From the NCBI RefSeq assembly GCF_021028995.1, contig NZ_JAJJZG010000008.1:1-64000 (forward strand): a DNA stretch of 64,000 bases, given 5' to 3'. Position 1 is the stretch's first letter, and every line of letters begins with the position of its first letter. The notes beneath the pieces were generated by a model. It was not told the DNA's origin. It made no database searches and saw nothing but the letters and a program-made list of their open reading frames with translations. The translations under genes and the position numbers were made by a program. This document shows, in pieces, positions 52,640-56,691 of this stretch. Source of the DNA: Halobacterium sp. KA-4 (GTDB lineage: Archaea; Halobacteriota; Halobacteria; Halobacteriales; Halobacteriaceae).

Positions 52640-53797
52640 CTACGACGTGGTAATCGTCGCCAGTTCGTCGCGGTCGAACAGTTCGCCCTCGAAGCGCTCG
52701 GGGTAGAGCTCCGTGGCGAAGCGCTCGGTGAGGAAGAGGTGCTGAATCGGGCCGAGGTAGATGGGGCCGCCGCGGTAGACGGCGCCCTCCTCGACGGCGG
52801 TGATGCGGCTCGCCGTCTCGTGGTTCTGCATGAACGACACGACGGTGTTCTCGAACTCCTCGCGGGTCTTGTCCTCGTGGCCGCGCACGAACAGCGCCTC
52901 GGGGTCGAGGTCGAGCAGCGTCTCGTAGTCGATTTCCGAGCGGCTCCCCGTCGAGAGCGCTTCGACGTCGGAGTCGGCGATGGCGTCCTGGACGTTCAGG
53001 TCGTGGAAGGACTTCTTGTTCGCGCCCTCGCCGCTGAGGTGGTACGGGGAGAACGACGTGGGCTCGTTACTGCCGCCCCAGACGAGCGCGGCGCGCGGCC
53101 CCTCACTGGGCACATCCTCGCCGATGCGCGCGACGAAGTCGTCGTGGAACGTTGAGAACGCCTCGTAGCGCTCGGTCTCTTGGACCGCTTGGGCGACCTT
53201 CTCGAAGGCGCCGTACATCGTGTAGTAGTCGTAGTCGTGCCACGCGTCCGTGCGCCGGAAGATGGTGTTGCCGAGGAACGGGCCCGCGCGCTCCTCGAGG
53301 AACTGGACGTCCTCGTCGTTCATCTCGAAGACGTTCGTCAGCCAGTTGGGGTCGATGAGGTGGAGGTCGGCGTCGATGGAGAGCAACGTCTCGCGGGAGA
53401 CGCCCTGGTCGACGAGGTCGACCATCTGGGACTTGTCGACGCTGACGCCGTCGAGTTCCTCGTAGCCGCCGGTGTGGTAGCGGGCCTTCTGTCCGATGGA
53501 CGCGACGGCGTCGCCGTGGCCGAGCGCGACGAGCATATCCGCGTAGCCGGACGTGTAGACGGCGATGGTCTCGGGGACGCTGTCGAACTCGACTTCACCG
53601 ACCGGCGTCATCGTGACGCTGTACGACTGGGACTGGGCTTCGGTCGTCTCCTCGGCGCCCGACGTCGTGGCGTCGTCCTCGGTCGCGGGCGCTTCGGTCG
53701 TGTCGTTCGTGCTTCCTTCGTTCGGGCTCGCGCAGCCGGCGAGCAGGCCGGCGAGCGTGGCTGCGGTACCGGACTTGATGAACGTGCGTCGTCGCAT
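52640..53797 (-). CDS. Iron/siderophore ABC transporter substrate-binding lipoprotein
   Basis: A 385-residue secreted protein. The Tat signal MRRRTFIKSGTAATLAGLLAGC ends in a lipobox with Cys22. A Thr/Glu-rich linker (about 23-58) follows, then a type III periplasmic-binding fold (FepB/BtuF-like): VETIAVYTSGYADMLVALGHGD-like core, helix-linked lobes and DPEALFVRGHEDK. It binds the chelate outside the membrane and passes it to the FecCD permease downstream. Expression is probably controlled by the operator directly upstream. Confidence 0.9.
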   Translation of the reverse strand: MRRRTFIKSGTAATLAGLLAGCASPNEGSTNDTTEAPATEDDATTSGAEETTEAQSQSYSVTMTPVGEVEFDSVPETIAVYTSGYADMLVALGHGDAVASIGQKARYHTGGYEELDGVSVDKSQMVDLVDQGVSRETLLSIDADLHLIDPNWLTNVFEMNDEDVQFLEERAGPFLGNTIFRRTDAWHDYDYYTMYGAFEKVAQAVQETERYEAFSTFHDDFVARIGEDVPSEGPRAALVWGGSNEPTSFSPYHLSGEGANKKSFHDLNVQDAIADSDVEALSTGSRSEIDYETLLDLDPEALFVRGHEDKTREEFENTVVSFMQNHETASRITAVEEGAVYRGGPIYLGPIQHLFLTERFATELYPERFEGELFDRDELATITTS

Positions 53798-53802
53798 ACT
53801 CG

Positions 53803-53818
53803 TTTAGGTTCGCCTAAA
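53803..53818. promoter_or_regulatory. Iron-type palindromic operator before the substrate-binding protein gene
   Basis: TTTAGG-TTCG-CCTAAA is a perfect inverted repeat located 5 nt upstream of the ATG at 53797, so it would overlap the transcription start of a leaderless mRNA. Same half-sites and spacer length as 52607-52620. A lone CCTAAA half-site follows at about 53848. Confidence 0.75.
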
Positions 53819-53924: not shown

Positions 53925-53931
53925 CTTTATG
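53925..53931 (+). promoter_or_regulatory. TATA box upstream of the valS leader
   Basis: CTTTATG, centred near 53928, lies 28 nt before the ATG of the 10-codon leader ORF at 53956. Transcription would therefore begin at or very close to that ATG rather than at valS itself. Confidence 0.65.
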
Positions 53932-53955
53932 GCCGCGCCACCGCTCCGCTGACGT

Positions 53956-53988
53956 ATGCGCGTCGAGCTCGCGGTAGTACGTGTGTAA
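53956..53988 (+). CDS. Putative valine-rich leader peptide of valS
   Basis: ATG at 53956, ten codons, stop TAA at 53986-53988. The product is MRVELAVVRV: four valines in ten residues, including tandem GTA codons, a codon I rarely see in the flanking genes. It begins exactly where the TATA box places the mRNA 5' end and ends 63 nt before valS. GTGTGT in its last codons (53981-53986) can pair with ACACAC at 54012-54017. This suggests that ribosome stalling on Val codons could control valS, as in bacterial attenuation. Inferred from sequence only. Confidence 0.5.
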   Translation: MRVELAVVRV

Positions 53989-54051
53989 GCCCTCTTCTCG
54001 TCACGAACCGGACACACAGACACGCGACCGCGGCCGACGACCCACCCAGCT

Positions 54052-56691
54052 ATGACGAACATTCCGGACAGCTACGACCCCGACCGCATCGAGACCGAGT
54101 GGCAAGACGACTGGCAGGACTCCGACGTCTACGAGTTCGACCCCTCCGAGTCGGACACCCAGTACGTCGTCGACACGCCGCCGCCGTACCCCACCGGGAA
54201 CCTCCACCTCGGCCACGGCCTGCAGTGGTCGTACATCGACTTCGTCGCGCGCTTCCACCGCCTGCAGGGCGACGCCGTCCTCTTCCCGCAGGGCTGGGAC
54301 TGCCACGGCCTCCCGACCGAGGTCAAAGTCGAGGAGAACCACGACATCCACCGCACGGACGTCTCCCGCGAGGAGTTCCGCGAGATGTGCGTCGAGCACA
54401 CCGAAGCCCGCATCTCGGAGATGAAACAGACGATGACCGAATTGGGCTTCTCCCAGGACTGGTCGGCGGAGTTCCGCACGATGGACCCCGAGTACTGGGG
54501 CCAGACGCAGTCGTCGTTCGTCGAGATGGCCGACGACGACATGGTCTACCGCGACGAGCACCCCGTCAACTGGTGCCCGCGCTGCGAGACCGCTATCGCG
54601 GACGCCGAAGTCGAGAATGTCGACCGCGAGGGCACGCTGTACTACGTCACGTTCGAGGGCGTCGGCAACGACGACATCGAAATCGCGACCACGCGCCCGG
54701 AACTGCTGGCGGCCTGCGTCGGGATGGCAGTCGACCCCGACGACGAGCGCTTCGAGGGCCGCGTCGGTGACACGTTCGAGGTCCCGCTGTTCGGCCAGGA
54801 GGTCGAACTGCTCGCGGACGACGACGTCGACCCCGACTTCGGGACCGGCGCCGTCATGATTTGTACGTTCGGGGACAAGCAGGACGTCGACTGGTGGGCA
54901 GAGTACGACCTCGACCTCCGGTCGGTGTTCACCGAGGACGGCCACCTCACCGAGGAGGCCGGCGACTTCGCGGGGCTGTCCATCGACGACGCGAAGGGCG
55001 AAATCGCGGACGCGCTCGACGACGAGGGCTACCTGAACGACACCGAGCCCACCGAGCAGAGCGTCGGCGCGTGCTGGCGGTGTGACACGCCCATCGAGAT
55101 TCTCTCCAAGGAGCAGTGGTTCGTGGAGGTCGACCAGGACCTCGTCCTGGAGAAGGCCGAGGAGGTCGAGTGGATTCCCGAGCACATGCACGACCGCCTC
55201 GTCGACTGGGCGGAGGGCATGGAGTGGGACTGGGTCATCTCCCGGCAGCGCGTCTTCGCGACGCCGATTCCCGCCTGGGAGTGCACGGACTGTGGCCACT
55301 GGCACATCGCGGAGCGCGCCGAGACGCCGGTCGACCCCGACGAGGAAGACCCCGCCGTCGGCGCGTGCCCCGAGTGTGGCAGCCACGACTGGCGCGGCGA
55401 GACCGACGTCATGGACACGTGGATGGACTCCTCGATTACGCCGCTGCACATCTCCGGGTGGCCCGAGGACATCGACCTCGACGAGTTCGAACCCGTCGGC
55501 CTGCGGCCGCAGGGCCACGACATCATCCGCACGTGGGCGTTCTACACGCTCCTGCGGACGGGCGCGCTCACCGACGAAGCGCCGTGGGACGACATCCTCG
55601 TTAACGGCATGGTGTTCGGCCCGGACGGCAACAAGATGTCCAAGTCCCGCGGCAATGTGGTCGCGCCCGACGAGGCCATCGAGGAGTACTCCGCGGACGC
55701 CGTCCGGCAGGCGCTCGCGCTCGGCGGCCAGCCCGGCAGCGACGTCCAGTTCCAGTGGAAGGAGGTCAAGTCCGCCTCCCGCTTCCTCACGAAACTCTGG
55801 AACATCGTGAAGTTCTCCGGCGGACACTTCGACGAGGACACGCCCGACATCAGCGACCCCGCCTACCGGGACGCCGACCGCTGGCTGCTCTCGGAACTCA
55901 CGCGGGTCGCCGACGAGGTCGAAGCCGAGATGGAGGCGTACCGGTTCGACACCGCGCTTCGTACGCTCCGCGAGTTCGCGTGGGAGGACCTCGCCGACGA
56001 CTACGTCGAACTCGTCAAGGGACGGCTGTACAACGGCCGGCCGGGCGAGCGTGCCGCCGCCGAGAAGACGCTCTACACCGCGGTTACCGCAGTTGTTCGG
56101 ATGCTGTCGCCGTTCAGCCCGCACGTCACCGAGGAAATCTGGAACCACCTCCCGGGCACCGAGGGCAGCGTCCACAACGCCGCGTGGCCCGAGGTCGACA
56201 TGTTCGACGAGGACGCGGAAGTCGCCGGCGAGTACATCGCCGAGACCGCCAGCGAGGTCCGCGCGTGGAAGTCCGAGAACCACATCCCGCTGAACGAACC
56301 CCTCGACCGCGTCGAGCTCTACTTCGAGCCCGGCCAGGAGGCGGGCCTCGACACGTACGACCTCAGCGAGACCGTCAACGCCCCCATCAAGCTCGTTGAG
56401 GGGCGCCCGGACATCGAACTGGTCCCGGTCGAGGTCGACGCCGACGAGTCCGAAATCGGTCCCGAGTTCCGCAGCGACGCGGGCGCGGTGATGCAGGCCG
56501 TCGACGCCGCCGACCCCGCCGAGATTCAGGCGCAGATGCACTCCGGCGACACCGTCACCGTCGACGCCGCCGGCGAGACGTACGAACTCGACGCCGACTG
56601 GCTGACCGTCGAGACGGAGTACCACGCCCAGTCCGGCGAGGAAGTCGCGGTCATCGAGACGTCGTTCGGCACCGTCCTCGTCTACGAGTAG
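54052..56691 (+). CDS. valS: Valyl-tRNA synthetase
   Basis: An 879-residue class I synthetase. The HIGH-type motif is [13 protein letters not shown] (about 50-56). The CP1 editing domain contains [17 protein letters not shown] and zinc-type cysteines. The KMSKS motif is present exactly in [12 protein letters not shown] (near 528). The C-terminal anticodon-binding helical domain and a beta-rich acidic tail follow. It charges tRNA-Val and edits Thr. Length agrees with archaeal ValRS. It is preceded by a valine-rich leader ORF. Confidence 0.97.

Follow-up and report, generated by a model that had tools for sequence, protein, structure and literature searches.

A conserved valine-rich leader ORF upstream of haloarchaeal valS suggests ribosome-mediated sensing of charged tRNA

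Organization of the valS upstream region in Halobacterium

The window, which is the whole 64,000-nucleotide stretch of Halobacterium DNA analyzed here, carries valS (54052..56691, + strand), encoding an 879-aa valyl-tRNA synthetase (ValS by NCBIfam) and presumed to be the regulated gene. Upstream of it on the same strand lies a short leader ORF (53956..53988), identified from its sequence and the frame test described below, which encodes MRVELAVVRV and ends with a TAA stop codon at 53986-53988. Its codons (ATG CGC GTC GAG CTC GCG GTA GTA CGT GTG TAA) include four for valine, among them a conserved tandem of the rare codons GTA GTA (53974..53979, + strand), which are the proposed control codons. 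A TATA-like element, TTTATG (53926..53931, + strand), precedes the leader ATG by 30 nt, a spacing from which transcription is expected to begin at this ATG or immediately beside it. The initial annotation had described a 10-codon Val-rich ORF with tandem GTA before valS, a gap of 63 nt between its stop codon and the valS ATG, and a TATA box upstream of the leader ATG, all of which agree with the sequence at the coordinates it gave. The leader stop codon is followed by a pyrimidine- and U-rich stretch, CCCTCTTCTC (53990..53999, + strand). Scans of the window region for sigma-70 promoters and terminators, built for non-archaeal signals, returned no matches. Further upstream, a perfect inverted repeat (TTTAGG-TTCG-CCTAAA, 53803-53818), which may be a regulator site, lies just upstream of a divergent gene (52640-53797) whose product looks like an ABC transporter substrate-binding lipoprotein.

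Conservation of the leader ORF among haloarchaea

Upstream regions of valS were read at 84 loci of haloarchaeal or related origin, comprising 13 genomes of the window's own genus, in which Halobacterium sp. CBA1126 is the nearest named relative, and 71 other genome contigs. A leader ORF of the same design is present in 75 of the 84, including H. salinarum DSM 3754 (L033). The shared design consists of a TATA-like box, about 30 nt of spacing, an ATG, 15 or 18 nt (once 9), the element GTAGTACG (once GCAGTACG), a few further codons, a stop codon, and then 45-157 nt to valS. Leader codons 2-6 are highly variable, while Val-Val is constant; the leader of L078 has one Val fewer, and two relatives retain GTA GTA without the following Arg (MSATQSVVGGL in L235 and VVY in L234). 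The leader is absent from nine loci, namely five Marine-Group-IV-like loci (L093-L097) and L071, L086, L090, and L109. In the Marine-Group-IV-like archaea (L093-L097), other short conserved ORFs, MRFMFGGHHEKK and MKKNRR.., are found upstream of valS.

The frame test presupposed no reading frame and considered ATGs located 27-32 nt after a TATA-like site at 68 distinct loci. The promoter-spaced ATG is in frame with GTAGTA in 65 of 66 cases, and a stop codon falls within four codons after GTAGTA in the leader frame at 67 of 68 loci, compared with 0/68 and 1/68 in the other two frames. The leaders make use of all three stop codons and differ in the wobble base of the Arg codon (CGT, CGC, CGA, CGG), indicating that a coding frame is kept rather than a mere string of bases. 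These comparisons point unmistakably to maintenance of the leader frame, far beyond chance, and the ORF, its Val codons, its stop codon, and its promoter spacing are kept over at least 15 genera. The initial annotation had made its proposal depend on conservation of the ORF and its Val codons in relatives, and both are conserved across genera.

The same data bear on the quite unlikely alternative that GTAGTACG is a protein-binding site in DNA or RNA and the ORF is incidental to it. Eight bases of GTAGTACG are nearly invariant, as such a site would require, and the arm bases also pair in the long-range helix P1 described below. However, a binding site accounts neither for the outcome of the frame test (65/66 and 67/68) nor for the variable Arg wobble base, and the element itself becomes GTAGTAGG in L235 and GTAGTATA in L234 with GTA GTA still in frame. 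In addition, related elements retain an ORF amid different surrounding bases, and this explanation is already largely refuted.

Promoter placement is equally regular. A TATA-like box, in line with the TATA/BRE consensus for haloarchaea (PMC4983044), is found 28-31 nt upstream of the leader ATG at 73 of the 75 leader-bearing loci. At none of these 75 loci was a TATA-like site found 22-36 nt before valS itself, so the valS transcript should include the leader, and it is expected from this spacing to begin at or adjoining the leader ATG.

Rare valine codons in the leader

GTA is a rare codon in the genes counted, accounting for 3 of 217 Val codons (1.4%) in five window genes and, across fifteen valS ORFs, for 3 of 957, compared with 153 of 220 in the valS leaders. 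Among the tRNA genes scanned in the window genome, tRNA-Val genes with the anticodons UAC, GAC, and CAC occur once each. A tandem of such a rare codon could suit a sensor of tRNA charging. The 13 Halobacterium genomes were also searched for further leaders with tandem NTA codons, and no match but valS was found in all of them. Another recurrent match (G000 C10) was rejected as a leader because it opens an ordinary long ORF.

Codon choice also bears on a simpler possibility, that a translated upstream ORF lowers valS translation constitutively or through re-initiation, with no sensing of valyl-tRNA. The ORF is clearly maintained, as this explanation requires. However, it leaves unexplained the tandem of the rarest Val codon, which is kept in nearly all lineages, as well as the Ile and Val codons before ilvB and the Phe codons before pheS that are described below, and we consider it improbable.

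Conserved RNA helices at the control codons

A conserved long-range helix, P1, is predicted between a 5' arm within leader codons 2-7 (53961..53975, + strand) and a 3' arm located 13-25 nt before the valS start codon (54027..54039, + strand). The helix reaches into the first GTA codon and displays compensatory changes across genera, as in the arm pairs CGTCGCTGTCG/CGACAGCGACG (L032), CCAGTCGGTAG/CTACCGGCTGG (L099), CGTCGGTTCCGC/GCGGGACCGACG (L012), and CTGACT..GTCGGT/ACCGAC..AGTCAG (L040). P1 arms pair more stably with their own partners than with arms swapped between genera (mean -20.0 vs -16.1 kcal/mol; z -9.7 over loci), and by genus the advantage holds with a Wilcoxon p of 0.004 over 18 genus groups, 5 of which show no advantage. 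In some lineages (Halococcus, Halocatena, and Halapricum), P1 is weak or missing altogether. At Natronomonas-type loci, two pairs are changed on both sides. A covariance model derived from nine Natronomonas-type leaders matches the valS leaders of Halorussus, Halarchaeum, Haladaptatus, Halorientalis, and others. In the resulting alignment, which is fitted to the structure and so leans towards it, and which includes a few chance matches, two-sided changes occur in 17 of 22 pairs (reached by 0 of 500 shuffles), and 87% is paired, compared with 28-38% on sliding. The single-sequence fold energy of the window leader is ordinary (z -0.65), and the structural claim therefore rests on covariation.

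A smaller helix that contains the stop codon often starts directly after GTAGTA. In the window, its weaker counterpart runs on its 5' side from directly after GTAGTA to the stop codon (53980..53986, + strand), with predicted pairing to 54020-54026; a comparable helix varies by compensation at Natronomonas-type loci. The initial annotation had instead paired GTGTGT in the last leader codons with ACACAC at 54012-54017. Both strings are present, but they do not form a conserved structure, as ACACAC is lost in several Halobacterium species and the predicted fold pairs CGTGTGT with 54020-54026.

When a ribosome footprint is masked in the fold model, the probability that the P1 3' region is unpaired rises modestly, from 0.35 to 0.44, while that of the valS AUG is nearly unchanged (0.53 to 0.55). 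In this simple model, a ribosome at the stop codon opens the P1 3' region as much as a stalled one does, which would suit constitutive or re-initiation control by the upstream ORF. The covariation suggests that a conserved helix lies at the control codons where a ribosome could disrupt it, as in an attenuator.

The leader also recalls T-box riboswitches in placing a cognate codon near the top of a stem, and it might be imagined to bind the tRNA anticodon directly through GUA, with no translation involved. Such a T-box-like element is very improbable here: no Rfam family matched at E <= 1, the ORF is kept from ATG to stop although a T-box does not need it, and no conserved complement of the tRNA 3' end was noticed in the leaders.

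Leaders of the second ValS type, ilvB, and pheS

Among 294 Halobacteria genomes drawn, 70 encode the ValS type of the window (class 1) and 223 encode a second, diverged type (class 2; E <= 1e-60). Second matches with 42% identity in Halobacterium resembled an additional ValS, but the one tested (L014) is a bacterial-type LeuS. Leaders of class-2 valS occur in families f2 (in part), f3, f7, and f10, as labeled here, and end with V-F-V-G-A-x-stop, V-V-G-A-x, or V-V-V-G-A-x. Their GTA is followed immediately by a hairpin, GGGGC(N6)GCCCC, which usually spans the stop codon and has stem variants GGGCC/GGCCC and GGCCC/GGGCC. In some of these leaders, the ORF start also takes part in a covarying long-range helix; this helix lies farther from GTA, so the class-1 geometry may not apply there. 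A TATA-like box stands at the expected distance in many f2 class-2 leaders, but none was found for most f3 and f7 ones. A VVR leader accompanies the second ValS type in genus g70 of family f3. No leader was seen at valS in family f4, where TTTAACAG stands about 28 nt upstream of the gene's own ATG. Upstream of Halobacterium ileS, TTTTAG stands about 27-30 nt from the ATG, and no leader was seen there. Two other features recur upstream of valS in families f3 and f7. The last 130 nt before the gene at L198-L219 and other loci of these families contain conserved CCGTTTCGACGG (a UUCG-loop hairpin) GATGTATTG, and the same regions hold a second ORF with the C-terminal end ..RRRP..RAVRA; its TGA overlaps with an ATG at or adjoining the valS start (GCATGA).

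A scan of 146 genomes for the pattern of GTA plus hairpin found it in 80, compared with a total of 7 matches for a reversed-pattern control, and exposed a second recurring site before ilvB, the gene for the acetolactate synthase large subunit. All ten sites of this type that were fetched (L282-L291; families f2, f3, f4, f7, and f10) precede an acetolactate synthase gene, and the three tested were identified by TIGR00118. The ilvB leaders end with ..IIVGAx, ..IVGAx, or ..VIVGAx, often preceded by Leu, carry the same GTA-GGGGC(N6)GCCCC hairpin as class-2 valS, and lie 115-202 nt before ilvB. When GTA was left out of the pattern, eight genomes yielded 11 sites, 10 of which were ilvB or valS sites already found with GTA. 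No GTA-hairpin site was found in the Halobacterium genomes searched.

Mapped transcripts of Hfx. volcanii include a 26-aa uORF before pheS and a 23-aa uORF before trpS (HVO_A0127, in the long 5'-UTR of tryptophan--tRNA ligase), with no separate transcription start site marked at either main gene (dRNA-seq; PMC4983044 Table 2). Because this table lists a pheS uORF, pheS loci were examined as well. An ORF that ends in a run rich in Phe, mostly GFGFFF followed by a few residues, precedes pheS at 34 of 44 loci (L303-L346), and nearly all of these leaders have a TATA-like box about 26-31 nt before the ATG. The window's own genome encodes the pheS leader MASEPHAGRSARRAAAAPGFGFFFA 184 nt before pheS (L333; G000:C54, ~108 kb). 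After the pheS leader stop codon, a stem recurs whose helix bases change and whose internal loop is of the GGAC/CGAA type.

The codons of the leaders thus follow the downstream gene: over the last eight leader positions, valS leaders have 24-33% Val and 0-1% Ile, ilvB leaders 20% Val and 19% Ile, and pheS leaders 44% Phe and 1% Val. This matches the prediction of a charged-tRNA sensor and is not predicted by a constitutively acting upstream ORF, a DNA site, or chance. The initial annotation's suggestion that such a leader senses charged tRNA gains support from this agreement of codon content with valS, ilvB, and pheS.

Proposed mechanism of valS control

The valS leader is probably a leader peptide through which the ribosome tests the supply of valyl-tRNA, acting through P1. 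The valS mRNA would open with a leaderless 10-codon ORF translated from its 5' AUG. When charged tRNA-Val(UAC) is ample, the ribosome would pass GTA GTA, stop two codons later, and leave, whereupon the 5' half of the ORF could pair with the segment before valS to form P1 and valS expression would be lowered. When Val-tRNA is short, the ribosome would wait on GTA GTA and cover the 5' arm, so that neither P1 nor the inner helix forms and valS expression would be raised. In class-2 valS and ilvB, the waiting ribosome would instead cover the hairpin that starts directly after GTA. We infer that the ORF is translated, that the ribosome stalls, and in which direction and at which level expression responds; that the structure lowers and a waiting ribosome raises expression follows from the logic of synthetase control.

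The output may lie in translation initiation or in transcription termination, and the former is a little more likely. As a sub-version of ribosome-sensed control whose probability overlaps with that of the preferred explanation, the termination variant is a tentative one: leader translation would decide whether RNA polymerase continues or terminates prematurely at the U-rich stretch, either at a U-tract or in the manner of FttA/aCPSF1. Archaeal termination relies on U-rich tracts, and a pyrimidine- and U-rich stretch follows the leader stop codon at 69 of the 75 class-1 loci (by a loose pattern), in some, such as L052, directly after a small helix (TACGT...ACGTATTTTT). However, the Halobacterium stretch is short and interrupted, the hairpins of class-2 valS and ilvB are mostly not followed by a U-run, and P1 can form only once the U-rich stretch has already been transcribed.

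Beyond valS, it is likely, at slightly lower confidence than for valS alone, that haloarchaea use a general leader-peptide system that tunes valS, ilvB, and pheS, perhaps also trpS, to their cognate charged tRNAs. We hold with the same confidence that this would be attenuation-type control in archaea, in which sensing begins at the first codon of leaderless mRNAs. The same sensing logic would then operate at three genes and over most haloarchaeal families. If so, gene expression in archaea can be subject to feedback from translation of a 5'-terminal ORF, which would bear on the question of a common or an independent origin of the bacterial and archaeal systems.

Comparison with known systems

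Control of genes by charged tRNA through a leader peptide is textbook knowledge for bacteria, and to our knowledge there is no established archaeal case. In the open-access literature, no description of an archaeal leader-peptide sensor, including a haloarchaeal one, was found, in accordance with the initial annotation's remark that such control of an aminoacyl-tRNA synthetase gene is not known to be described in archaea; subscription papers and preprints lay outside this search, and a prior description elsewhere is possible.

The uORFs of Hfx. volcanii are archaeal and located on mapped transcripts, with 2 of the 16 lying before pheS and trpS, but they are presented as small proteins rather than amino-acid sensors, and valS and ilvB are not listed (PMC4983044 Table 2). 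The Corynebacterium ilvBNC leader likewise places a conserved uORF, with an ilvB-II motif, before acetolactate synthase, but in a bacterium (PMC10272879). T-box riboswitches likewise adjust the expression of aminoacyl-tRNA synthetase and amino-acid genes to tRNA charging; they bind the tRNA directly and need no ORF, and the valS leader lacks an Rfam match.

The haloarchaeal leaders differ from the bacterial attenuators (pheST/pheM, ilvGMEDA, ilvBN, and trp leaders) in their archaeal host, in a leader ORF that appears to start at the first nucleotides of the transcript, and in the very rare control codon (GTA) of valS. In addition, no Rho-independent terminator was found, and an antiterminator/terminator pair is not among the structures seen. 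However, like the bacterial attenuators, they have a short 5' leader ORF, tandem codons for the amino acid of the downstream gene, RNA helices that overlap or adjoin the control codons, and a classical gene set (pheS, ilvB, and an aminoacyl-tRNA synthetase). At the level of sequence, the attenuator features matched are an ORF between promoter and gene, cognate control codons, and a disruptable helix, which suggests that the valS leader works like bacterial leader-peptide attenuation.
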